Shown here piece by piece: positions 1,490 through 18,292 of a stretch of DNA of 64,000 nucleotides (the stretch's first letter is position 1; every line of letters starts with the position of its first letter). Both the position numbers and the translations under genes were made by a program. The DNA is from Ramlibacter rhizophilus (GTDB taxonomy: Bacteria; Pseudomonadota; Gammaproteobacteria; Burkholderiales; Burkholderiaceae_C): positions 186,001-250,000 of the forward strand of contig NZ_SMLL01000007.1 of the NCBI RefSeq assembly GCF_004681965.1. Reading direction: 5' to 3'. Below the pieces are notes generated by a model that ran no database searches, was not told the origin of the DNA, and saw only the letters and a program-made list of their open reading frames with translations.

Positions 1490-3526
1490 TCAGGCGGGCC
1501 GCAGCGCCCGCGCCGCGCGCACGGCGTGGTGCCGGGCCCGGCGCAGCACGAAGGGCGAGCGCGATTCCTCCGGGATCAGCAGCCAGCCGGCGCCGCGCAT
1601 GCGTTCGCCGACCGTGACATGGCTGGTGAGCACGGCCAGCGGCAGCGCCATCAGCAGCGGCAGGCCCACGGGCACCAGGGAGACCAGCGCGGCCGGCTCG
1701 ATCCAGGCGACCACGGCCGCGAGGGCGAGCACGACGCTGGTGAAGGGCGCCAGGCGCGAGGCGGCATCCTGCCAGCCGAGGCCCGACGCTTCCCGGGGCG
1801 GCGACTTCCATTCCAACTTGAGTCCGGTCAGGGCCACGGCCACGAAGAGCGAATGCGCCAGCATGCGGATGGGCGCCTGCAGCAGGGCCATGCCGGTCTC
1901 CAGCGCGGCGCTGCGCAGCAGGGCAGCGCCGCCGCCGAAGGCCTGCTGCTCGCGGCGCATGAACACGGCCGCCAGCCCCAGCACGCGCGGCAGCATCAGC
2001 ATGCACAGCGTCCAGGCCCACAGCACGAGCAGCTCGCGCGGCGCGGCCTCGCCTTCGGGCACGATGCGCGCGCCGGCCAGCCACAGGGCGGTGCCCAGGG
2101 TCATGAAGGCCAGCCACAGCGGCGCCGACAGGTAGGACATGGCGCCCACGCCGAACATGGCGCGGTGCACGCGGTCGATGCCGGGCTCGGCGATCAGGCG
2201 CGAGTTCTGCAGGTTGCCCTGGCACCAGCGGCGGTCACGCTGCAGCTCGGACAGCAGGTCCGGCGGCTGCTGCTCGTAGCTGCCGGCCAGGTCCGAGACC
2301 AGCCACACATGCCAGCCGGCGCGGCGCATCAGCGCGGCCTCGACGAAGTCGTGCGACATGATGGGACCGGCCAGGCCGCCTTCGCCGCGGATCGGTGCCA
2401 GGCCGCAGTGGGCCATGAAGGGGGCCACGCGGATGATGGCGTTGTGGCCCCAGTAGTGCGAGGCGCCCAGCTGCCAGAACTGCATGCCCAGGGTGAAGAG
2501 GCGGCCGGTCACGCGCGAGGCGAACTGCTGCGCGCGGGCGTGCAGGGTGGCGTGGCCCACGGCCTGGGTGGCGGTCTGGATGATGCCGGCCTGCGGGTGC
2601 GCCTCCATGAGCTTGGCCAATGTGACGATGCACTCGCCGCTCATCACGCTGTCCGCGTCCAGCACCACCATGTAGTGGTAGTCCTTGCCCCAGCGGCGGC
2701 AGAAGTCCGCCACGTTGCCGGCCTTGCGGTGGGTGCGGCGCTGGCGGCGGCGGTAGTACACCTCCACCTGCGGCTGGTCCGGGTGCTCGGCCAGCCCTTC
2801 GCGCAGTTGCGCCCAGGCGGCGCGCTCCTGCGCGGCCAGGCCGGCATCGGCCGTGTCGGAGAGCACGAAGACGTCGAACTGGCGGGCGTGACCGGTCGCG
2901 GCCACCGATTCGCAGGTGGCGCGCAGGCCGGCGAAGACCGTGGCCACGTCCTCGTTGCAGATCGGCATGATCACCGCCGTCCGCGCATCGGGCGCGAGCG
3001 CGTGGCCCTGCACCGCCTTGGCCGAGATGGAGTGCGCGTCGCCGCGCAGCATCACCCAGAACCCCATGAGGGCGGTGACGAAGCCGGTGACCACCCAGGT
3101 CGAGAGCACGGCGAAGAGGGCGATCTGCCCGTAGCGCCACCAGTTGCTCGCGTAGTCGGGCTGGGCATTGGCGAACAGCAGCGTCGCCACCGTGGCGCTG
3201 ACCACCGTGATGAGCGCGAACACGCTGCGCCGGCGGGAGGCTGCGTCCTCCCAGCTCGCGCGGCGGCGCGAGGGCGCGGGCCGGGCCGGCGAGATCAGCC
3301 GGTCGAGCGCTGCCAGGCCCGCCGTGCCCAGGCTGTTCCAGAAGCCGCGCCAGGGCTGCGTGGGCATGGAGCCCCGGTGCACCGGCGGCGCGGTCACGCT
3401 GTTGGGGTGGCGATCCTCACGCAGCGCGGGGCGGCGCGAAACCACGGCCGGCGCGCTGCTGCCGCCGGTATCGCCTTCGGACCACTGCTTCAGTGGACGG
3501 CGTCGGGAAGGATGATGTTGGTCCAT
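1490..3526 (-). CDS. opgH: Glucans biosynthesis glucosyltransferase OpgH (MdoH)
   Basis: OpgH is an inner-membrane GT2-family glucosyltransferase that polymerises the beta-glucan backbone of osmoregulated periplasmic glucans from UDP-glucose. The 678-residue protein is shorter than the roughly 850-residue E. coli enzyme, mainly through shorter terminal extensions. The catalytic DAD signature is at residues 290-292 and the QRDRRW motif (QxxRW class) at 429-434. Hydrophobic segments flank the catalytic domain, at about residues 110-160 and in several stretches after residue 455. The ATG at 3526 lies 37 bp inside the end of opgG, so the two genes are translationally coupled and surely cotranscribed. 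Identity is firm; the exact start is less so because of the overlap. Confidence 0.93.
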   Translation of the reverse strand: MDQHHPSRRRPLKQWSEGDTGGSSAPAVVSRRPALREDRHPNSVTAPPVHRGSMPTQPWRGFWNSLGTAGLAALDRLISPARPAPSRRRASWEDAASRRRSVFALITVVSATVATLLFANAQPDYASNWWRYGQIALFAVLSTWVVTGFVTALMGFWVMLRGDAHSISAKAVQGHALAPDARTAVIMPICNEDVATVFAGLRATCESVAATGHARQFDVFVLSDTADAGLAAQERAAWAQLREGLAEHPDQPQVEVYYRRRQRRTHRKAGNVADFCRRWGKDYHYMVVLDADSVMSGECIVTLAKLMEAHPQAGIIQTATQAVGHATLHARAQQFASRVTGRLFTLGMQFWQLGASHYWGHNAIIRVAPFMAHCGLAPIRGEGGLAGPIMSHDFVEAALMRRAGWHVWLVSDLAGSYEQQPPDLLSELQRDRRWCQGNLQNSRLIAEPGIDRVHRAMFGVGAMSYLSAPLWLAFMTLGTALWLAGARIVPEGEAAPRELLVLWAWTLCMLMLPRVLGLAAVFMRREQQAFGGGAALLRSAALETGMALLQAPIRMLAHSLFVAVALTGLKLEWKSPPREASGLGWQDAASRLAPFTSVVLALAAVVAWIEPAALVSLVPVGLPLLMALPLAVLTSHVTVGERMRGAGWLLIPEESRSPFVLRRARHHAVRAARALRPA

Positions 3527-5031
3527 GTTTCGGTCAGGCTGTCGTTGCCGTGTTGAAGAAAGGCGCGCAGCTCCACGGGCTGCGCGGGATCGATGGGGCG
3601 CACCCGCAGCTGCATGCGCCAGCTGCGCGTGGCGGGGTTGAAATAGGCGTTCTGTTCCTCGATGCGGCCGTTGGCATCGGCGGTGGCGACGGGCCGCACC
3701 GCGGCGTCCGCCGGCAGCGCGGCCAGGGCCGGGCCGGCGAAGTCCACCAGGTACTGCACCTCGCCGGCCACGCTCGTGCCTTCGCGCACATAGCCGAAGC
3801 CGCGCCGGCTCTGCACCGCCCAGCCGCCGGGCGGGCGCTGCTGCTCGTCGCCCTGCCAGCTCAGCTCGTAGGCGAACTCCAGCGGATGGCCCGGCGCGGG
3901 CAGGCGCTCGGGCACCCAGTAGGCGACCACGTTGTCGTGGGTCTCGTCGGGGATCGGCAGCTGCACCAGCTCGACGCGGCCCGGGCCCCAGTCGCCCAGC
4001 GGGCGGACCCAGGCCGAGGGACGGCGCTCGTAGCGGGCCTCGACGTCCTCGTAGTTCACGAAGCTGCGGTCACGCTGCATCAGGCCGAAGCCGGCCAGGC
4101 CCGGCACCTGGAAGCCGTTGACCAGCACGCGGCGCGGGTGCACCAGCGGCCGCCACAGCCATTCGCCGCCGGTGGTGGCGACCATGAGGCCGTCGGAGTC
4201 GTGCACCTCGGGGCGGAAGTCGCCGGCGCGCGGCTGGTTCTCGCCGAACAGGAACATGCTGGTCAGCGGCGCGATGCCCAGGGTGGCGATCGGCTGGTCG
4301 CCCGGGCGCAGGAAGACGCGGGCGCGCACCTCCATCGCGGTGGACGTGCCCGGCCGGACGACGAAGCGGTAGGCGCCGGTGGCGCGCGGCGATTCGAGCA
4401 GCGCGTGGATCACCAGCTCGCGCGCACCGGGTGCCGGACGTTCGAGCCAGAACTCCGAAAAGCGCGGGAATTCCTCGCCGCTGCCGCCCACCGTGTCCAG
4501 GGCCAGGCCGCGCGCCGACAGGCCGTACTGCGTGCCGGCGCCGAGCGCGCGGAAGTAGCTGGCGCCGAGGAAGACGACGAGCTCGTCCTTGTAGGCCTCG
4601 GTGTTGAGGGGGTAGTGGACACGGAAGCCCGCGAAGCCGAGGTCGCCCCAGGCGTCGGGGTTGACGGCGTTGCGGCCGTAGTCGAAGTCGGCGCGCTGGT
4701 AGGCGAGCGGACGCACGGAGCCGTCCGGCGCCACCTCATTGACGCGCACCGGCTCGGGCGCGTACTTGCCGCGGTGGAAGAACATGGCCTCGAAGGGCAG
4801 GCTGCCGTCGCGCCACAGGGCGCGGTCGGTACGGAACCGGATGTCGCGCAGGCCGTCGTAGTCGAGGGCGGCCAGCTCGGCGGGCAGGCGGCTGGCCGGG
4901 GCGGCATGCGGCTTGAGCGACGCGACGCGGGCGCGCTCGGTCAGCGTGTCGAAGTTGAAGGCCTGGGCCAGCACGCCGGGCGCGACGGCGGCCAGGCACA
5001 GGAGCAGGAAGGGAACGCGCAGGAATCGCAT
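3490..5031 (-). CDS. opgG: Periplasmic glucans biosynthesis protein OpgG (MdoG)
   Basis: OpgG is a periplasmic protein required with OpgH to make osmoregulated periplasmic glucans. It is thought to act on or branch the nascent glucan. The 513-residue product starts with a clear Sec signal peptide: MRFLR, a hydrophobic core to about residue 20, and a likely cleavage after VLA at residue 22. The rest matches the OpgD/OpgG fold by the FNFDTLTERA start and the conserved aromatic-rich strands. The ATG at 5031 is the only start that preserves the signal peptide. It lies 12 nt from the -24/-12 element just upstream, so a sigma-54 transcript would begin almost at the start codon. The gene overlaps opgH by 37 bp. 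Confidence 0.94.
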   Translation of the reverse strand: MRFLRVPFLLLCLAAVAPGVLAQAFNFDTLTERARVASLKPHAAPASRLPAELAALDYDGLRDIRFRTDRALWRDGSLPFEAMFFHRGKYAPEPVRVNEVAPDGSVRPLAYQRADFDYGRNAVNPDAWGDLGFAGFRVHYPLNTEAYKDELVVFLGASYFRALGAGTQYGLSARGLALDTVGGSGEEFPRFSEFWLERPAPGARELVIHALLESPRATGAYRFVVRPGTSTAMEVRARVFLRPGDQPIATLGIAPLTSMFLFGENQPRAGDFRPEVHDSDGLMVATTGGEWLWRPLVHPRRVLVNGFQVPGLAGFGLMQRDRSFVNYEDVEARYERRPSAWVRPLGDWGPGRVELVQLPIPDETHDNVVAYWVPERLPAPGHPLEFAYELSWQGDEQQRPPGGWAVQSRRGFGYVREGTSVAGEVQYLVDFAGPALAALPADAAVRPVATADANGRIEEQNAYFNPATRSWRMQLRVRPIDPAQPVELRAFLQHGNDSLTETWTNIILPDAVH

Positions 5032-5042
5032 GCCCTGGCTAG

Positions 5043-5058
5043 TGCAAACCCTATGCCA
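5043..5058 (-). promoter_or_regulatory. Predicted sigma-54 (-24/-12) promoter of opgGH
   Basis: On the minus strand the sequence reads TGGCATAGGGTTTGCA. It fits the sigma-54 consensus TGGCACG-N4-TTGCA with exact spacing (GG and GC separated by 10 bp) and two mismatches in the less critical positions. Position -12 falls at 5044, so the predicted transcript starts near 5032, one base before the opgG ATG. It faces opgG and sits beside a gene for a sigma-54 activator (glrR). The assignment is from the motif only. Confidence 0.7.
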
Positions 5059-5075
5059 GGTATTTTTCCTATTTA

Positions 5076-5088
5076 AATCAATGGGTTG
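5076..5088 (+). promoter_or_regulatory. Predicted IHF binding site
   Basis: AATCAATGGGTTG matches the IHF core consensus WATCAANNNNTTR at every defined position and has an A/T-rich flank at 5060-5075. It lies between the -24/-12 element and the two candidate enhancer boxes. That is the place where IHF bends DNA so that an enhancer-bound activator can contact sigma-54 polymerase. A single short consensus can occur by chance; its position is what makes it credible. Confidence 0.6.
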
Positions 5089-5149
5089 CGACGGTTTTGA
5101 AAGGCCGCGCGGCGATCCGGCGGTCGCGACCGCTGGAAACGGCTTATTC

Positions 5150-5167
5150 CGTCGCCGACCAGCGACA
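5150..5167. promoter_or_regulatory. Promoter-proximal GlrR-like enhancer box
   Basis: CGTC-N10-GACA matches seven of eight positions of the TGTC-N10-GACA box reported for enterobacterial GlrR. It is centred about 110 bp upstream of the -24/-12 element of opgG, a normal distance for a sigma-54 enhancer. Confidence 0.5.
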
Positions 5168-5268
5168 GTCGAACGCGGCCAAGCTGCTCATCCGCCGCTA
5201 AAGCCCGTCGGAGCGTGCCCGCACATCGGACATGGACGCCCTCGGAGGGGTGAATTGGCGCATCGGGC

Positions 5269-5286
5269 TGTCGGCCGCCTCCGACA
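5269..5286. promoter_or_regulatory. Distal GlrR-like enhancer box (perfect match)
   Basis: TGTC-GGCCGCCTCC-GACA is a perfect TGTC-N10-GACA box, about 225 bp upstream of the -24/-12 element of opgG. It lies in the non-coding gap between opgG and glrR. The rest of this gap (5059-5482) shows no convincing ORF. There are further GTCG-rich inverted repeats around 5281-5320, but none fits the full box. Confidence 0.6.
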
Positions 5287-5482
5287 GGCGTGTCGGACCG
5301 AGGCGCGAGCCGCTGTCGGCGAATCGGTAGCGCGACCGTGCCGTGATGCCCTGTGATGTGCGGTATTCCGCCGTCGACGGGGAAAGGTGCGTACGCATCA
5401 GGCGCCGTAGCGCGGCAGGCGCTGCAAAGCCTTGGGAAAGCACGCCCGCGCGCCGTGAATTCGCTCACGGCGCGGGCGTGCC

Positions 5483-6895
<1,413 letters not shown>

Positions 6896-6905
6896 GGTCG
6901 TTGCC

Positions 6906-7577
6906 TCACCGGGGCGGCCGGCTGGGCATGCTGCGCTCGATGGCGCGCAGGGCCTCCAGCCGCTCGCTGAGCTGGTCCAGCCGCCGCTGCTGCTCGCGGA
7001 TCACCTGGCCCTGCTTGTCGAGCTGTTCCTCGTGCCGACGCTGCTGCGCATGGTGGGCGATCAGCAGCCGCGCCAGCGGATGCAGGCTGCGCGCTTCCTC
7101 GCTGTCGCTGGACAGCACCGACTGCAGCAGGCCCTGGGCCCGTCCCGCGTCGGCGGGCACCTGGGTCTGCAGCAGGGCGAGCGCCAGCTGCATCTGCCGC
7201 AGCGGCGCTGCGCCGGGCGCCGAGAGGCGGCCGATCTCGGCGCCGAGATCGGCGCTCTGCAGACCCCGCAGGCGGTCGGCATGCGCCAGGGCGGCCGCGA
7301 GCGGCGAGGCGTTGGTAGGCGCCGGGGGCGGCGTGGGGGCCGGTGCGGGCGCCGGGGGCGGGGGCGCGGGAATGGGGGCAGGCGCCGGCGCCGGCGCTGG
7401 TGCGGGCACGGCCACGACGGGCGGCGGCGCGGGCGGCGCGAGCGGCGGCGGCGCGCTGGCACAGCCTGCCACGAGCGCCATCAGAGGCGCGAGCACGCAG
7501 GCCACGGCCGTCGCAGGCCGTCGCCGGGGAGCGCAGCGGGTCGGCCGCGCGCGCGGGCCGACGGTCTCAATTCGCAT
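6906..7577 (-). CDS. QseG-like outer-membrane lipoprotein between glrK and glrR
   Basis: This 223-residue predicted lipoprotein starts at the ATG at 7577, inside the last codons of glrK. That start gives a basic N-terminus, a hydrophobic stretch and the lipobox LVAGC ending at about residue 39. A Pro/Ala-rich linker follows, built of PAP and PPAP units over about 50 residues. The C-terminal half is helical and leucine- and glutamine-rich, with a probable coiled coil around the LDKQGQVIREQQRRLDQL region. In enterobacteria the gene in this position (qseG/yfhG) encodes a lipoprotein that modulates the GlrK/QseE sensor. The same role is inferred here from synteny, because sequence similarity cannot be checked. 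Confidence 0.72.
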   Translation of the reverse strand: MRIETVGPRARPTRCAPRRRPATAVACVLAPLMALVAGCASAPPPLAPPAPPPVVAVPAPAPAPAPAPIPAPPPPAPAPAPTPPPAPTNASPLAAALAHADRLRGLQSADLGAEIGRLSAPGAAPLRQMQLALALLQTQVPADAGRAQGLLQSVLSSDSEEARSLHPLARLLIAHHAQQRRHEEQLDKQGQVIREQQRRLDQLSERLEALRAIERSMPSRPPR

Positions 7578-9030
7578 GGGGTAGTTCGATCCGAAAGTGG
7601 GCGCCGGGTCCGTCCTCGTCCAGCAGACTGACCTGGCCGCCGTGGGCAGCAATGTACTCCTGCACGATCGACAGGCCGATGCCCGTGCCGCGCACCGCGT
7701 CCTGCGGCTGGCGCTCGCCCCGGTAGAAGGGCTCGAAGACACGGTCGCGGTCCTCCGGCGCGATGCCGGGGCCCTGGTCGCGGATGTCGATGCGGGCGCG
7801 GCCGTCCTGCGTGGACAGGGCGATCTCGATGCGGCTTCCCGGCGGCGCGAAGCGGATGGCGTTGGACAGCAGGTTGGCCACCGCCGTGCCGAGCTTGTCC
7901 GCGTCCACCCGCGCCCAGACCGAGGGACCGGTCACCTGAACCTGCAACTCGCCCGCCTGCCATTGCAGGCGCTGCGCCTCCACCTGCTCGTGCAGCAGGG
8001 TGAGCAGGTCCGTGCGCTCCCGCCGCAGCTGGCGCGCCTCGAAGGCCGCGGCGTTGAAATTCAGCAGGGCCTCGATCTGCCGCTGCAGCAAGGCGGTGTT
8101 GTGGCGCAGGATGCGCGCGACCTCCTGCTGGTCGGGCGTGAGCTCGCCCGCCACGCCTTCTTCCAGCAGCGACACGCCTTCGCGCAGCGCCGCCAGCGGT
8201 GTCTTCAGCTCGTGCGACACGTGCCGCAGGAAGCGGGCCTTGTCCGCGTCCAGCTCCATGAGGCGAAGCCGCAGCCATTCGAGCTGCTGCCCCAGGCGCC
8301 GCACGTCGGCCGGGCCGCGGATGTCGATGGGGTCCTCCAGCCGGTTCTCGCCCAGGTTCACCACCGCACGTTCCATGCGCTTGAAGGGCCGGGCCAGCCA
8401 CAGGCCCAGCGTGATCGCCAGCACCGCGGCCAGGAAGATGGCCAGCGCCACCTGGCGGATCAGGCGGCTGCGGCTGACGGCCAGGCTCTCGCGCAGTGAC
8501 CGGTCACGCTGCTCGATGTCGTCCTGCACCGCGCGGGCGATGCGGCTGTTGACGAAGTCCAGTTCGCGGAACTCCAGCGCCACCTGCCGCTCGCGGTCCA
8601 GCGCCGTTGCCTGGGGGCCGGGCAGCAGTGCGGTCACGCTGTCCAGCTGGGTGAGCCAGCGCAGCGCCAGCGGCTCGGCCAGGCCGTTGCGGCGCATGCG
8701 CTGGAGTGAGTTGCGCGCCTGCTGCAGCTCTTCGCGAAAGCGCCCCATGAGAACCGGGTCGTTGAAGACGAGCGCCTGGCGCGCCGCGCGCTCCATGGCC
8801 ACGGAGCGCGCGGTGAGGGCCTGGGCGCTGGCCGTGAGTTCGAGCGCGCGCGTGGCCTCGGCGCTGCTTTGCGCCATGAGCTGCTCCAGGATCATCAGCG
8901 AGCGCACCGCCGCGGCCCCCAGCAGCAGGCCGATGGCGAGAAACGCAACCAGCAGCAGCTGCCGGAACGAGACCAGGCTCACCCAGGGCAGGCGCAGGCG
9001 CCGGCGCCAGGTGGGAGAAGCCGGCGCCAC
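7567..9030 (-). CDS. glrK: Sensor histidine kinase, GlrK/QseE type
   Basis: This is a membrane histidine kinase of 487 residues. A first transmembrane helix spans about residues 21-45, a periplasmic helical region follows, and a second helix lies near 190-212, leading into a HAMP-like segment. The dimerisation domain carries the phosphoacceptor in HVSHELKTPL (His273). The ATPase domain shows the N box NLLSNAIRF, DQGPGIAP and GTGIGLSIV. The GTG at 9030 directly follows the miaB stop; a second in-frame GTG near 8982 is possible, and neither has a strong ribosome-binding site. It overlaps the lipoprotein gene by 11 bp and forms an operon with it and glrR. It is the presumed partner of GlrR. Confidence 0.88.
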   Translation of the reverse strand: MAPASPTWRRRLRLPWVSLVSFRQLLLVAFLAIGLLLGAAAVRSLMILEQLMAQSSAEATRALELTASAQALTARSVAMERAARQALVFNDPVLMGRFREELQQARNSLQRMRRNGLAEPLALRWLTQLDSVTALLPGPQATALDRERQVALEFRELDFVNSRIARAVQDDIEQRDRSLRESLAVSRSRLIRQVALAIFLAAVLAITLGLWLARPFKRMERAVVNLGENRLEDPIDIRGPADVRRLGQQLEWLRLRLMELDADKARFLRHVSHELKTPLAALREGVSLLEEGVAGELTPDQQEVARILRHNTALLQRQIEALLNFNAAAFEARQLRRERTDLLTLLHEQVEAQRLQWQAGELQVQVTGPSVWARVDADKLGTAVANLLSNAIRFAPPGSRIEIALSTQDGRARIDIRDQGPGIAPEDRDRVFEPFYRGERQPQDAVRGTGIGLSIVQEYIAAHGGQVSLLDEDGPGAHFRIELPHAN

Positions 9031-10888: not shown

Positions 10889-13800
10889 TTAACCGGCGCC
10901 GCCCGACATCACCCGGATGTTGTCGACGCCCAGCTCCCCGTTCAGGGCGCCGAAATCCGCAAGCAGGGTTGAGGTGCTGGTGCCGGCATCGAAGAAGTAC
11001 AGCTGGGACAGATACGAGCTTCCCTCCTGCACGAACAGGAACTGGTCGCTGGCCGCGCTGAAGGTGGACAAGTCCTCGGCGGTGTCCAGCGATGTCAACA
11101 GGTAGTCGAGCGGATCCAGGCCACTGAACAGCGGTGTCTTCGTTTTCACGAAGATCAAGTCCTGTTGCGCATCGAAGTTCAGCAGCAGGCTGCTCGAGGT
11201 ACCCGGCGCGTCCAGGCCGATCATTTCGGCGGCTGCGCCGAGCGCGAGGGTGTTGCTGCCTCCCTCGATCCGGATACTGACGTCCTCGCCCGCCGGCGCC
11301 TGCGAGGTGTCGATCCAGTTGTTGCCGCCCGACTCGCGGATGACGGCGAACGTGCTCGCGATCAGGATGTCGTCGCCCGCGCCGCCGTCCAGGTAGGACG
11401 CGATCCGACCGTCGGCGCCCATCGTCTGCACCAGGATGTCGTTGCCGGCCCCGCCCAAAAGCTCGATCGCCGGGGCGGCGAGGTAGTCGTCGCCGTCGCC
11501 GCCGTCCTGCGTGCTGGCGGACGGGTCCCCGACCAGCAAGACGTCGTTGCCGTCGGTGCCCAGCACCGTGGAATCGACCGGCTGCGGCACCAGCACGCCG
11601 CTGCCGTCGTCATCGATCCTGATGCGGACTTCGTGCGCGTCACCGTTCTGCGTGTGCACGGTGAAGCTGCGCGTCACGTCCGATTCGGACGGCACGGCCC
11701 AGGCCTCGAGCGAATAGGTCCACTGTCCCAGCTCGTCGATGCTGAACGACTCGCCCGCCTGCCCGGCGGTCTGCGCCTGGAAGCGCAGCAGTGTGTCCTG
11801 CAAGGGCGCGAAGGCAACGAGATGCCCGGACGTCCGCATCACGGGCGCGCTGCCGTCCTCCGGAATGGGCATGTCGGCCCGCGTGAGATAGCGATCGTCC
11901 AGGCCGCCGATCAGGGTGGGATCGGCGCTGCCGCCGATCTCCACCACGATCGCCTGCGAGGCGCTGCCGTCCAGCGAGTGCACGACCAGTTGGTCCTGCA
12001 CGTACTCGCCCTCGGCGAGGGCCTGCACCAGTGCCGAACCATTGGCCAGCTGATACTGCCAGGCACCGGTGGCGCGGTCGAAGCTGAAGCGGCCGTAGGT
12101 GCCTTGCAGCTCGCTGCTCGACGGGTCCTGGAAGCTGTCGTCGCCGCCGTCCAGGTCGGCGATGGTCAGGTCGCCCGTGGCGCTCGTCGTGCCGTCTTCC
12201 ATTACCCAACCGCGGCGATCGCCGCCGATCACCGCGGGCTCGTCCGCGCCGGAGATGGTGACGCGGAGGGTCTGCGCCGTGCCGTCGAGCGCATGCACCA
12301 CCAGCGTGTCCACGACCTGCTCGCCCGTGCGCAGGGCGTCCGTTGCGCTGGCTGCGTTGTCCAGCGCGTACATCCAGCCGCCGGTCGCCCGGTCGAAAGT
12401 GAACGCGCCGTAGGCCGTGACGAGATCTTCTGCCGCGGGCGCGGCGAAGGCTGGCGCGCCGCTGGTCGGCAAGGCGAGTCGGCCGATGGCGAAGGCGTTG
12501 CCACCTTCCTCCACGTTGGCGACGGACTCGCGTGTGAGCACGATGTGCCCGGCCGTGGGCGCGTGCTCGACGGCGTCGAAGACCGCCAGTTCAAGGGGCT
12601 TCGCCTCGCCGGGCGCCACGTACCCCAGGAGCACGCGGCCGTCGTCCATCGTGGCCAGGACCAGCCTTGCTTCGGTGCTGGGGACCAGCCCACTGAGGAC
12701 CTCCGCGACCGTGCCGGAGAGCACGCTGTCCGCCGGCAGCCTGCCGTCCGCGGTCGGCGCGGCCAGGCCACGGAAGAGCGTGGTGTCGATCATCACCACG
12801 TCCTGGGAGGGATCGAAGCCGGAGACCAGGTTCAGGGCGTCCGCCGAGGCGAACAGCACCGTGTCCGAACCCGTGCCCAGGTTCATGGTGTTCACACCAC
12901 GGCCGCCATCCAGCAAGGCGTAGCCGGCGACCGGAGCGCCCATCATGCTAGCCAGCTGCGGACGGAAGTGATCGTCGCCGTCGCCGCCGCGCAGCACGTC
13001 GGTTCCGCTGCCCTTCTCGAGCGCGTCGTCGCCGTCGCCGCCCTCCAGCCAGTCGTTGCCTTCCTCGCCGCGCAACACGTCGTTGCCGGCGCCCCCGTAC
13101 AGCCGGTCGTCGCCTTCGCCCCCGAGGAGGCGGTCGTTGCCGTCGCCGCCGGATAGCAGGTCCTTGCCGGCGCCGCCATTCAGCTCGTCGTGCCCGAAGC
13201 CGCCGAACAGCGAGTCGTCGCCTTCCTCGCCGAACAGCAGGTCGTTGCCGCCGCCCCCGAACAGCCGGTCGTTGCCGAGGCCGCCGGCGAGGTAGTCGTC
13301 ACGCCCCGTCCCCGTGTACTCGACGCTGCCGGTGTCGCTGTCATCCGAGTCCAGCGTGCCGCCGTCGCCGAACAGCACGTCGTCGCCTTCCCCGCCGTTG
13401 AGCGAGTCGGCACCGTCGCCCCCGATCAACCGGTCGTGGCCCTCGCCACCGAGGACCTGGTCATTGCCGCTGCGGGCGTCCACGTGGTCGTCGCCTGCGA
13501 AGGTCTCGATGAAGTCGTCCCCCGCGGTGCCGTACAGGTCCGGCGAAGCGAGCGCCGGGATCGTCACGACCAGCGTGACCGGCTGACCATCCGCGGTGAA
13601 CACGACCAGGCGATCCTGCAGGGGCGTCGTTCGGTCCAGCGCGTCCAGCGTCGCGGCATCGGCTTCGTAGGTCCAGCTGCCCGTGGAGCTCACCTGGAAC
13701 CGCCCCCAACCCCGGTCGCCGAACACGCCGGTCTCGCCCGGTGCAGGCTGCGGAACCAGGATGGCGACCGGCCCGCCGTCGAGGTCCAGCAACTCCAGTT

Positions 13801-16800
13801 GTCCGCCCACGCGCAGCAGCCCGGGCACGCCGTCCACCGCGTCCAGCAGCGTGAGCCGGGTTTCGAGCTGCCCGTCGATCACCGCGTTGGCGTCGCGCCC
13901 GTGGATCATCACGGTGATGTCCGTGAAGGTGACGCCGTCGTAGGCGTAAACGCGCAGCGTTTCCTGGTGGATATCGCCGGTGTTCAGCGACTGCACCAGC
14001 GCCTTCAGCTCGGGGGCGTCGTTGAGGTCGAACCGCCAGCTGCCGTCTCCGAAGAAGCGCCAGCCGGGTGGAAGACCGAATCCTTCGACGTAGAACGCGT
14101 CTACGCCATCCGGCGGCACAAGGCCGGTGAGCCCCAGCTGCCCGGCGGCAGCGCTCTCGCGGCCGTCCTCGAACAGGATCGCGCCCGTGGTGCCGGTGAT
14201 GCGGGGAGCGGGGCTTTCGATGGTGACGGTGAGGGTCGCGCTCGCCGTGCCATCGAGCGACACCACCTCCAGCGTATCGACCAGCGGTGCGCCGGGCGGG
14301 GGCGCGACGCCGCCCATCCAGTCGGGGCGCAGGGTGTAGGTCCAGTCGTTCCCGTCGAGCGTGAACTCGCCATAGGCGCCGATGAGGGAGGCACCGTCGG
14401 CGAGGCGCACGAAGGCCTCGCCGGTGTCCACGTCGGTGACAAGGAGGTGTCCGCCGGTGGCGAGGATGTCGTCGCCGTCGATCAATCTGCCGGTGCGCCC
14501 CTCGGAGTCGATGCTGGCTGCGTCATTCTGGCCGTGGATGATGGCGGTGAGCACCTGGCTGGTCTGCCCATCGCGGGAGGTGATGGCGCCCGTGTCCTCC
14601 AGAGTCTTTCCGGCGCCGAGTGCCTGGACCGCCGCCTGGGCGGCAGGATCCGCAGACGGCACGTAGGTCCAGGAGAAGTATCCGTCCTCGAGCGGAGCCA
14701 GTTCGAAGGAGCCGTACGCCGCGTTGATGAACAGGGCGGCGGAGATGCCGCTTTCTTCCGCGTCGGGGTCGTCGAACGAGGAAACCCCGGCGGGCAAGTC
14801 GCTGTCGTCCTCCCAGAGATCCACGATCGACGGTCCGCTGAACACCGCCAGGTCGTTCCCGCCCTCGATATCCACGGCGAGCGCGACCGTTCGCGATCCA
14901 TCGAAGGACGTCACGTCCAGCGAGTCGCGCACCTGATCCCCGCCGCGCAGGGCCTGGGCCCGCTCGTCCAGCACGTAGGTCCAGTTGCCATCGGCGTCGA
15001 AGGTGAAGCTGCCCCAGTCACCCTGGAGTCCCAACGGGACCTGGAAGCTCGATTCGCCCACGTCCAGGTCGATGATCGACAGCTGGCCGCTCAAGGCCTG
15101 TGGGTCGTCTTCGGCGAGGACCAGCCCCGTCGGCACCACGATGACCGGAACGTCGTTCTCGCCGTGAATCGTGATCTCCACGATGGCGGAGACGCCGCGT
15201 GTGTCGGACTCCACCTCGAAGGAGTCGGACCGCGTCTCGCCCGCACCCAGCGCGTCCAGGGTCTCGCCCGGCGTGAGGGTGTAGGTCCAGGCGCCCGAGT
15301 CGGCGTCGAAGGTGAACGTGCCCCAGGTACCCGGCAGTGTGCCGTCCGTGACGAAGCGCGCGGTCCCTCCGGCATCGGGGTCGGTGATCGTCAGCTGGCC
15401 GGAAGCGGAGGGCGAGGTGTCCTCGTACACCTCGGCGCCGGGCCGGCTCGGCGTGATGACCGGCCGGCTGTCGGCGCCATCGATGGTGATCACGATGTCC
15501 TGGGCGCTGCCGTCCATGGACAGGAGCGTGAACGTGTCGGTGGCCACGGCGCCCGCGGGCAGGCTGCGCACGAGGTCGGGATCCATGAAGTAGGTCCAGC
15601 CGCCCTTGATGTTCAGGTGCAGGCTGCCGTAGGTGCCCTGCAGGTCCGTTTCGAGCGTGGCACCGTCCGAGAAGAGCAGCAATCGGGCCTGCCCCGAGTC
15701 CGGATCGATCACCTTGATGTTCCCCGAGGCGCGGGACTCCTCGCCCCCTTCGGCGAGGCGCGCCTCGAACACGCCGCTGAAGCTGGCCGGATCGTCGCTG
15801 CCGCGGATGGTGATCGTGACCGCGCGGCCGCCCACCTCGAAGACGTCGCTCAATGCCGCGGCGGCCGCGGTCAAGCCGTCCACGTCGGGATGCGTGTTGT
15901 TCAGCGTGTAGGTCCATTGCAGCGCCGAGGTGCCCGTCGCGCTCGCCCACGCGAAGCTCACGCTGCCGTAGGCCGTGGCGATCGGGTCGGGCGGGCTGGC
16001 CAGCCCGGCCACGAGCACCACGCCGGTGGCGACCTGGCTGGTGCCGTCCTCCTCCCGGCCGTCCTCGGTCACCACGCCCGCGGTGATTTCCGTGACCGGG
16101 CTGCCGGCGCCGTGGACCATGACGGAGAGCACCTGTGTCGCGCTGCCGTCGTAGGAGGTGATGGCGAGGGTGTCGACATCCGCGTCGCCGTCGAACAGCG
16201 CCAGCAGGTCGGCGGCGCCCGGGTCGAGGGTGTAGGTCCAGGTGCCCGCTTCGCGATTCAGGTCGAAGGTGCCGTAGCGGCCTGGAATGCTTCCGGTTTG
16301 CGCAATGATGCTGTGGCCGAAGTCCGGGTCAGCGACGAGCAGGGTGCCGCCGGTCGTGTGCCGCGCGGGGTCGCCCTCGTGGACCTCGCCCGCGTAGATC
16401 CCGGCCGGGTCGAAGTGCGCGGCGTCGTCGGCGCCGGTGATGTTGACGGTGAAGTCCTCGAACGCGGTGCCGTCCAGGGATTGCATGCGCGCGATGTCGG
16501 TGACCCTGTCCGTGGATGTCAAGCCGAGCCAGTTGTCGCTGAGTGTGTATGACCAGCTGCCGCCAGGGTTCTTGCCGTCACCGTTGTTGAAGGTGAAGCT
16601 GCCCCAGCGCCCGAGGACGGTGATGGGCTGCGTGGGATCGACTGCCGGCGGCGGCGGGGGGTCGCGGGGCGGTGGAAGGCTGCCGTCGTCGTCGGCGAGG
16701 GGCTCGACGGCGGATTCGAACGTTGTTCCACCGCCCGGATCCCTTCCGCCGCCTCCGTCGGGCGGCAAGGCGTGTACCAGGTAGCTCTCGCCCTTGTCCA

Positions 16801-18292
16801 CGTCGTGGACGGTAAAGCCGCCTGACACCGTGAGCGCATCGGGGCCGGCCTGTCTCGAGGTGTCGGCGTCGATCGTGGCGATGTCGTTCACGCCGGTGAC
16901 GGTCACCGACACGAGCGCTGACGCCGTGCCGTCGTGCGAGCTCAGCTCGAGCCTCTCCACCACCGTGGCGCCCCGGCCCAGAACCTGGGCACGGGCGTTG
17001 TCCAGCTCGTACCGCCAGCTCCCCGAGCCGGCATCGAAGGAGAAGCTGCCGAACTGCGTGGCGGCCGTCCACGATGCGATGCGGTTCTCACCCTCGTCCG
17101 GGTCTGTGACCGTGAGCACGCCCTCGGCTGCCTGCATGCCGTCCTCCGCCACGCTGCCTTCGGAAAGGCCCTCGATGGTCGCATCGTCATTGGCGCCGGT
17201 GACCGTCACCACGACCTGGGCCTCACCGCCACCGAGATCGGTGCGCACGGTCATCGTGTCCGAGACCGTCTGGTCCGCGCGCAAGCTGTCCGCGCGCGTG
17301 TTGTCCACCTGGTAGGTCCAGGTGCCGGTGAGGACATCGAAGGTGAACGAGCCCCAGTCCTGGGTCATCTCGGTCGGCTGGATGAACTGCACCGCACCGT
17401 CCGCCCAGGAGGCGGCCACGTTGCCCGAGGCCATGCTGGCGGCCGCATCGTCTTCCCTCACCTTCCCGAGCAGCGTGCCGCTGATCACCACCGGTTCGTC
17501 CTGGCCCTGGATCTCGATGCGCAGCGTGAACGACGTGCCATCGACGGAAAGCACCGTGATGTCGTCATGCACCGTCTGCCCGGTGCGCAGCGCCTGCACG
17601 TAGGGGTTGCCCTCGCTGCGCAGCACGTAAGTCCAGGCGCCTCCCGGGCTCAAGCTGAAAGTGCCGTAGTCGGTCTTGAACTCGGAGACGGGAACGAAGT
17701 TCTCCTCGTGGGGGCCGTCTTCGTCGTGGATCGTGAGCTGGCCTTCGAGGATGGATGTCTCGCCGTCTTCGGTCAGCGGCGCGGGAAGCGCTTCCTGCCC
17801 GATGATGGCCGAGCGGTTGATCCTGAGGGTCTCGCCGGTCAGCGTGAAGGTGACGGTGGTCCAGGCGAGGGGCTTGTCGGATGTGTTCAGCGAGACCGCG
17901 TACGCGAACGAGACGGAGATCTCCTCGCCGTCCTCGAGTTCGCTGATGTTGCTGGCCCCGAGGCGTGCCAGGGAGTACGAGATGTCCAGTTCGATGCGGG
18001 CAACGCCATCCGCGCCGGTGACGATCCGCATGCGGTCGCCGGAGGTGAGCGTTTCCCAGTTGCTGGTGATCGCCGTGCCCTTCAGGTCATCGGTGCGCAA
18101 CTGCCCGGCCGTGCTGGGGTCGTCGCCGCTGGCGTCGTCGATGGAGTAGAGGGTTACCAGTTCGCCGTCGTTCGCCAGGACGTCCAGCGTGATGATGTTG
18201 GTGCTGGTGAGTTCGAGCAGCTCCGATTCGGTGAACTCGAACACGTCGGCCGAGGTGTAGGTGTCGAGACCGGACTTGGGTTTGAAAAGCAT
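10889..18292 (-). CDS. Giant type I-secreted VCBS/RTX repeat protein (adhesin-like)
   Basis: This acidic, cysteine-poor secreted protein has 2467 residues. Residues 1-150 are cadherin-like ([10 protein letters not shown]). About 16 VCBS-like modules of 95-110 residues follow; most carry a WG/YGxFxFD...WxYxLD core and a closing VxVxGxxDxAxI strand. Thirteen modules precede and three follow a block of GGxGxDxLxGG calcium-binding nonapeptides at about residues 1585-1777. A second, degenerate RTX stretch lies near residues 2245-2320. The tail ends [14 protein letters not shown], resembling an uncleaved C-terminal type I secretion signal. Module 4 has a Gly- then Pro-rich insertion of about 45 residues. 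There is no N-terminal signal peptide. The exporter and adaptor genes lie upstream on the same strand. A role in adhesion or as a surface layer is inferred from architecture only; no enzymatic domain was found. Confidence 0.9.
12960..13540 (-). repeat. RTX nonapeptide repeat block inside the giant gene
   Basis: The coding strand repeats 27-bp units encoding GGxGxDxLx-type nonapeptides, about 18 in a row. One interruption near 13300-13360 encodes a Ser/Asp-rich loop ([16 protein letters not shown]). Such blocks fold as calcium-bound beta rolls after export. The DNA repeats are diverged, so recent expansion is unlikely. Confidence 0.85.

Follow-up and report, generated by a model that had tools for sequence, protein, structure and literature searches.

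Background

In Enterobacteriaceae, the response regulator QseF/GlrR acts together with IHF at the sigma-54 promoter of glmY, its box being TGTCN10GACA, also given as TGTN12ACA (available parts of PMC8745638 and PMC6075780). The initial annotation of the locus described here had stated that enterobacterial relatives of its regulator use this box and IHF at small RNA promoters, and for glmY these sources bear it out. A regulatory table for E. coli names GlrR and RpoN among the regulators of rpoE, and RpoE for opgG (excerpt of PMC10100675). In Dickeya, control of genes for osmoregulated periplasmic glucans (OPG) by Rcs and EnvZ/OmpR is described in a paper whose title concerns opgC (excerpt of PMC4726272). 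Leaderless mRNAs, in which the RNA starts at the start codon, were recorded by RNA-seq in Sinorhizobium and Bradyrhizobium; the excerpts of these two papers do not describe a conserved sigma-54 leaderless promoter (PMC3616915, PMC4842269).

Among the matches listed in open-licence PMC text, and as far as their excerpts go, we found no report of direct control of opgGH by GlrR or sigma-54 (RpoN). The parts of PMC6584795 that mention opgGH and RpoN do so in unrelated places, and a text search of PMC3162934 and PMC5979394 found no direct GlrR or sigma-54 control of opgGH. Likewise, no transcriptional regulator of betaproteobacterial periplasmic glucan synthesis appeared among the matches listed, within the excerpts of that open-licence text.

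The locus and its regulator

The window, i.e. the whole stretch of 64,000 nucleotides of Ramlibacter rhizophilus DNA that was analysed (host genome 4.59 Mb), carries on its minus strand, in this order, a sensor kinase, a putative lipoprotein, a GlrR-type regulator, a 451-bp gap, opgG and opgH (Table 1). The order kinase, lipoprotein-like gene, regulator is thus present; the kinase is 30.5% identical to E. coli GlrK (E 5e-59), and the middle gene had no significant BLAST match to E. coli QseG and no family match. The regulator has the Pfam domains Response_reg and Sigma54_activat and is 57.8% identical to E. coli GlrR. Its best family is NCBIfam PRK15115 (GlrR), with 622.3 bits, below the 763-bit equivalog cut-off, and we call it GlrR-type rather than GlrR. 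It shares the recognition-helix core RNRTEFY with E. coli GlrR; this core is found in 122, E. coli among them, of the 131 GlrR-like rows that span it. The gene upstream of the gap is thus a sigma-54 activator of the GlrR type, as the initial annotation had it. The nine rows without RNRTEFY (L044-L052) form a second GlrR-like group with the helix RNRTDFY, which shows 57-61% identity and occurs in some genomes of the genus, away from opgG.

The sigma-54 DNA-binding domain gave two matches in the genome of the window, so rpoN is present; the two rpoN-type genes lie at C9:392009-392476 and C6:343132-343599. Elsewhere in the window (10889-18292, minus strand), a 2467-residue ORF shows repeated blocks as well as glycine-rich repeats of the GGxGxD kind and, by eye, resembles a large secreted repeat protein.

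Table 1. Genes and predicted control elements of the glrR-opgGH locus (window positions)
Feature	Position	Strand	Remarks
opgH (MdoH glucosyltransferase)	1490..3526	-	5' end overlaps opgG 3' end
opgG (MdoG, PF04349)	3490..5031	-	family match
predicted transcription start, A of opgG ATG	5031	-	13 nt from -12 C at 5044; inferred from E. coli GlmY offset and position statistics
-24/-12 (sigma-54) element TGGCATAGGGTTTGCA	5043..5058 (reads 5058-5043)	-	GG-N10-GC spacing correct
IHF site, perfect, CAACCCATTGATT (AATCAATGGGTTG on + strand)	5076..5088	-	consensus match
proximal GlrR-type box TGTCGCTGGTCGGCGACG	5150..5167	-	one mismatch; at -109 from TGG, family position
distal GlrR-type box TGTCGGAGGCGGCCGACA	5269..5286	-	perfect; starts -228 from TGG, unusual distance
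strong hairpin, possible terminator with weak T run	5441..5480	-	-32.6 kcal/mol, z -3.0; directly behind glrR
glrR-type sigma-54 response regulator	5483..6895	-	family matches, BLAST, helix core
putative lipoprotein, qseG position	6906..7577	-	ORF call; start codon uncertain
glrK-type sensor kinase	7567..9030	-	family matches; BLAST against E. coli GlrK

Predicted control elements in front of opgG

All elements named in Table 1 lie on the minus strand and read into opgG. The correctly spaced -24/-12 element, the perfect IHF consensus and the two TGTC-N10-GACA-type boxes, one perfect and one with a single mismatch, are all present as first annotated, and by these motifs the promoter is of the GlrR type. 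The target in the window is not of the glmY type: it is opgG that begins at the predicted start site. As for the order and spacing said to be those expected, the proximal box indeed stands where it does in the family, whereas the distal one starts at -228 instead of the usual -181 to -177.

When 4000 first-order Markov sequences were generated from this 451-bp gap, a sigma-54 score of at least 16 arose in 0.075%, a perfect box in 0.15% and a perfect IHF site in 0.2%, and all elements jointly in none, with thresholds set post hoc at about the observed values. The scoring used sigma-54 weights and an IHF consensus which we take to be the accepted ones. Conservation among relatives, presented below, is stronger evidence for the elements than these statistics.

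Conservation upstream of opgG

Of the 59 genomes examined in the genus, not all of them complete, 22 contain opgG, and a -24/-12 element precedes it at 20 of these 22 loci. A GlrR of at least 79% identity occurs in 18 of the 59 genomes, in every case beside opgG by coordinates; one further case is G017, where the contig ends inside a glrR-like frame adjoining opgG. The 37 genomes lacking an opgG match all lack GlrR at this level; in six, there is a GlrR-like protein with 57-61% identity. The three genomes with opgG and no neighbouring glrR (G007, G011 and G032) contain no perfect box there; two of them also lack a scored sigma-54 element, and G007 has a strong one. This element (locus L020) is the highest-scoring of any seen upstream of opgG and lies 126 nt before the start of the opgG match; G007 has no GlrR match and no box, and its opgG start codon is off the leaderless position discussed below.

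The comparison was extended to the family with 91 opgG loci, namely the 22 of the genus and 69 of 87 further opgG rows; the remaining 18 rows represent partial copies or distant ones and, by their coordinates, never adjoin glrR, and the G049 fragments L021 and L025 are represented by L024. At 45 loci, a glrR of at least 70% identity lies just upstream of opgG. A sigma-54 element was detected at 44 of these, a perfect box at 39 and a box with at most one mismatch at 44, as against five, two and five, respectively, of the 46 other loci. The initial annotation had staked its reading on conservation of the elements upstream of opgG in relatives. They are kept beside glrR and nearly always absent elsewhere (sigma-54 element with perfect box at 39 of 45 versus 2 of 46 loci), with the proviso that locus counts are not independent, since the genomes are related. 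As for the two exceptions, in G163 glrR lies about 50 kb away with no such promoter behind it, while opgG retains the promoter and boxes, and in G138 glrR and opgG are about 1.7 kb apart.

Promoters leading into opgH and other genes

In 54 family genomes, GlrR was found at 69% identity or above. It was not beside opgG in 26, of which 20 were fetched. A strong sigma-54 element within 600 bp behind glrR was present at 19 of these 20 loci; 17 of the 19 elements lie 153-217 bp behind glrR, and one or more perfect boxes accompany each. At 17 of the 20 loci, opgH follows this promoter; the exceptions are G163, G116, where a 67-residue ORF takes that place and the retrieved sequence shows no opgH, and G198, where a BON protein is encoded. 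The opgG copies elsewhere in these genomes, as examined, have no perfect box, G163 excepted. Genome comparison shows the predicted motifs at a conserved spacing and in company with glrR, and places them before opgH at loci where opgG does not follow.

A scan of 84,980 species, blind to gene content, searched for two perfect boxes 44-54 apart, followed after 80-100 bp by TGGY-N7-TTGC, a pattern that fixes the Comamonad spacing. It yielded at least 118 stretches and at least 80 readable loci. Among the 80 readable matches listed, the downstream gene is opgG in 29, opgH in 14, a BON-domain gene in 19 and GlmY in four; two are cut off, and 12 have no assigned gene, two of them with a co-directional glrR upstream. 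GlmY was assigned by Rfam in L193, L217, L225 and L239, the four enterobacterial loci among the 18 scan loci searched, and the recovery of this known GlrR target is a positive control for the scan. The scan and the family test are not independent, because their genomes overlap (e.g. L199 is G022). At the level of the order, 16 of 20 fetched glrR loci have a box and sigma-54 promoter behind glrR. One leads into opgG (L290, Pfam-confirmed), three into opgH-like ORFs (L291, Pfam-confirmed, L292 and L309), two into BON proteins (L296 and L306) and one into a glycine-zipper protein (L302).

In a tree of 91 GlrR proteins, obtained by a quick search and of moderate support, the opg-linked GlrR proteins fall into one clade (SH-aLRT 85, one small-ORF row inside), one long-branch row excepted. 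With opgG and opgH merged, five target changes are needed; opgG and opgH themselves interchange several times. We lean towards the view that a portable enhancer-promoter cassette sits at the 3' end of glrR and that its target gene has changed in evolution. It would serve opgG or opgH in Comamonadaceae and some further lineages, BON genes in lineages such as Oxalobacteraceae, and a glycine-zipper gene elsewhere; in enterobacteria, GlmY lies at the other end of the locus. In the opg lineage, the cassette would have been joined directly to the start codon, and the resulting sigma-54-dependent leaderless mRNAs would form a conserved class.

BON-domain genes behind GlrR-type promoters, many of them in Oxalobacteraceae, are apparently a second lineage-specific target; besides the 19 among the scan matches listed, examples are L186:1938-2270 (-), L296:5291-5635 (+), L130:2556-2909 (-) and L306:5240-5731 (+). 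The glycine-zipper 2TM protein is encoded at L302:4899-5543 (+), and a bactofilin at L245:3043-3651 (-), a locus counted above among the 12 with no assigned gene, also follows such a promoter, with a glrR-like gene nearby in the opposite direction. A conserved ORF of 66-70 residues, starting at the leaderless position, was seen between the GlrR-type promoter and opgH (L117:4655-4858 (+), L118-L120, L123, L172, L175, L179, L189, L210, L221, L234, L241). It has the motifs LRPQRD..LR.K and VFKRLP.IG.TP, occurs in five of 200 family genomes, is absent from the genome of the window and matches no Pfam family at cut-off; G116 keeps it even though the sequence retrieved there shows no opgH behind it.

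We considered and rejected the idea that GlrR governs a wide regulon in this genus. A looser pattern of box and sigma-54 element gave 32 matches in the 59 genomes versus 12 for the reversed control; 13 were opgG promoters, and 19 lay elsewhere with no obvious common place. The window itself is missed by this pattern, because its proximal box has a mismatch.

Promoter anatomy and position of the start codon

We compiled 101 distinct promoters of the opg set (among them L123 and L130, where opgH is not the downstream gene) and 37 other promoters (including L180 and L190, both cut off, the latter with an opgG-like start). In 89 of the 101, an IHF site with one mismatch or none is found no more than 60 bp from TGG, and 60 of these sites are perfect; in shuffled sequences, the respective frequencies are 5.0% and 0.2%. 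Of the 89 sites, 85 are on one strand, centred at -26 to -24. Boxes with at most one mismatch start at -114 to -109 in 82 promoters, at -181 to -177 in 77 and at both positions in 75. There is also a minor class of six boxes near -80, about 31 bp (three helical turns) closer.

In E. coli K-12, the annotated 5' end of GlmY is 13 nt after the C of the -12 element. At exactly this offset (C+13), an ATG is found in 62 of the 101 opg promoters; 78 have it at 12-14, and 86 have ATG or GTG at C+11 to C+15, leaving 15 without either there. The 37 other promoters have ATG at 12-14 in only four, one being the cut-off, opgG-like L190. The order-level opgH loci L291, L292 and L309 have it at C+13 or C+14, and the Oxalobacteraceae BON genes examined have a leader of about 45-50 nt in which a purine-rich stretch of the AAAGGA type precedes the ATG. 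Thus, in most though not all of the opg set, the promoter appears to be fused to the start codon, and because the ATG sits at the offset of the E. coli GlmY 5' end, leaderless mRNAs are predicted. For opgG and opgH, this prediction is new in this analysis; the initial annotation had overlooked that the predicted start coincides with the opgG ATG.

Alternative explanations

That the motifs came together by chance is a negligible prospect. A single 8-base box is weak evidence, as illustrated by the looser pattern above (32 matches in 59 genomes, 19 of them not opgG, versus 12 for the reversed control). The elements and their spacing are, however, conserved in dozens of genomes, and a chance cluster is rejected on this ground. 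The sigma-54 promoter could instead be activated by another enhancer-binding protein, with glrR a mere neighbour. Other activators are at hand, as the GlrR query gives many first-look candidates per genome (129 in that of the window), some genomes of the genus carry the second GlrR-like regulator of 57-61% identity, and in G007 a sigma-54 element precedes opgG without glrR. Yet the box is the published QseF/GlrR consensus (available parts of PMC8745638) and co-occurs with glrR, and the helix core equals that of E. coli GlrR while that of the second group differs, so that we hold activation by another protein to be very improbable. It also seems improbable, if a little less so, that most opgGH transcripts come from an unseen promoter or from glrR read-through, with the sigma-54 promoter of importance in special conditions only. 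The genes do lie on the same strand and in line with glrR, the consensus terminator scan of the gap called nothing, the hairpin of Table 1 included, and the sigma-70 site scan is blind to other promoter types. This is countered by the strength of that hairpin behind glrR, the 451-bp gap, the lack of any sigma-70-like site called in 4950-5560, and the strong selection on the sigma-54 motif set.

A different objection accepts the promoter as described and disputes its leaderless product: RNA might start a few nucleotides upstream, or translation might begin elsewhere. With sigma-54, the start site varies by one or two nucleotides, the Rfam GlmY model starts at C+12 in L193 and at C+13 in L217, and in about ten of the 101 promoters the start codon is further down. 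The concentration of ATG codons at C+13 speaks against such an offset, and at several loci, by eye, the ORF reads straight into a signal-peptide-like N-terminus; we therefore find this objection unlikely, though far from fanciful.

Proposed model of opgGH control

In our judgement, the region is very likely an enhancer-dependent GlrR/IHF/sigma-54 promoter for opgGH, with a leaderless mRNA start in most relatives. We infer the steps that follow, from GlrR binding and activation through the start site and leaderless translation to the signal. Phosphorylated GlrR, encoded just upstream, would bind the TGTC-N10-GACA boxes, and IHF would bend the DNA between boxes and promoter, allowing GlrR to drive sigma-54 RNA polymerase to open at the -24/-12 element. 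In the window, as in most relatives, the first transcribed nucleotide would be the A of the start codon or one beside it, so that the mRNA of opgG (or opgH) would be leaderless. Sensor kinase and lipoprotein presumably link the system to a periplasmic signal. The control of opgGH by glrK-glrR proposed in the initial annotation thus draws its support from comparison, i.e. from conservation with glrR, the opgH-linked promoters and the gene-blind scan.

The lineage-specific targets (opgG/opgH, BON-domain, glycine-zipper and bactofilin genes) look like envelope or periplasmic factors, and hint at what the signal of the kinase may be. They also make this a clear case of regulatory rewiring, in which regulator and operator are conserved and genes are exchanged. 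We know of no described transcriptional regulator of periplasmic glucan synthesis in this wide betaproteobacterial group, for which the present analysis supplies a candidate regulator, its sites and a sharp start-site prediction. If RNA ends map to the AUG, this would be a promoter class coupling sigma-54 control with leaderless translation.

Comparison with known systems

Taken together, the comparisons support the reading that an already known regulatory system here has a direct target that is new, behind a promoter apparently fused to the start codon. The initial annotation knew of no link between GlrR and periplasmic glucans in the literature. Because the indirect GlrR-RpoE-opgG route is on record for E. 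coli (excerpt of PMC10100675), only the direct link is new, and the route makes the GlrR-opgGH link less unexpected: it, too, ties GlrR to opgG, but through another sigma factor, whereas here a GlrR-type promoter lies on opgGH itself. As in Dickeya, envelope or osmotic signalling would be tied to OPG genes, with regulators and promoter type that differ from those in the available text on that organism. Compared with the Bradyrhizobium leaderless mRNAs, whose upstream motif is of the extended -10 type in the parts of that work available, the opg promoters are of the sigma-54 type.

The closest described system is enterobacterial GlrK/GlrR (QseE/QseF)-glmY, which, in its available descriptions, likewise has kinase, middle gene and regulator in one run, together with the box, IHF and a sigma-54 promoter; the regulator of the window even has the recognition-helix core of E. 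coli GlrR. Unlike in the glmY system, the target here is opgGH instead of a small RNA and lies behind glrR instead of in front of glrK, the main IHF site of the opg set lies between the proximal box and the promoter, and the opg transcript is predicted to start at the start codon.
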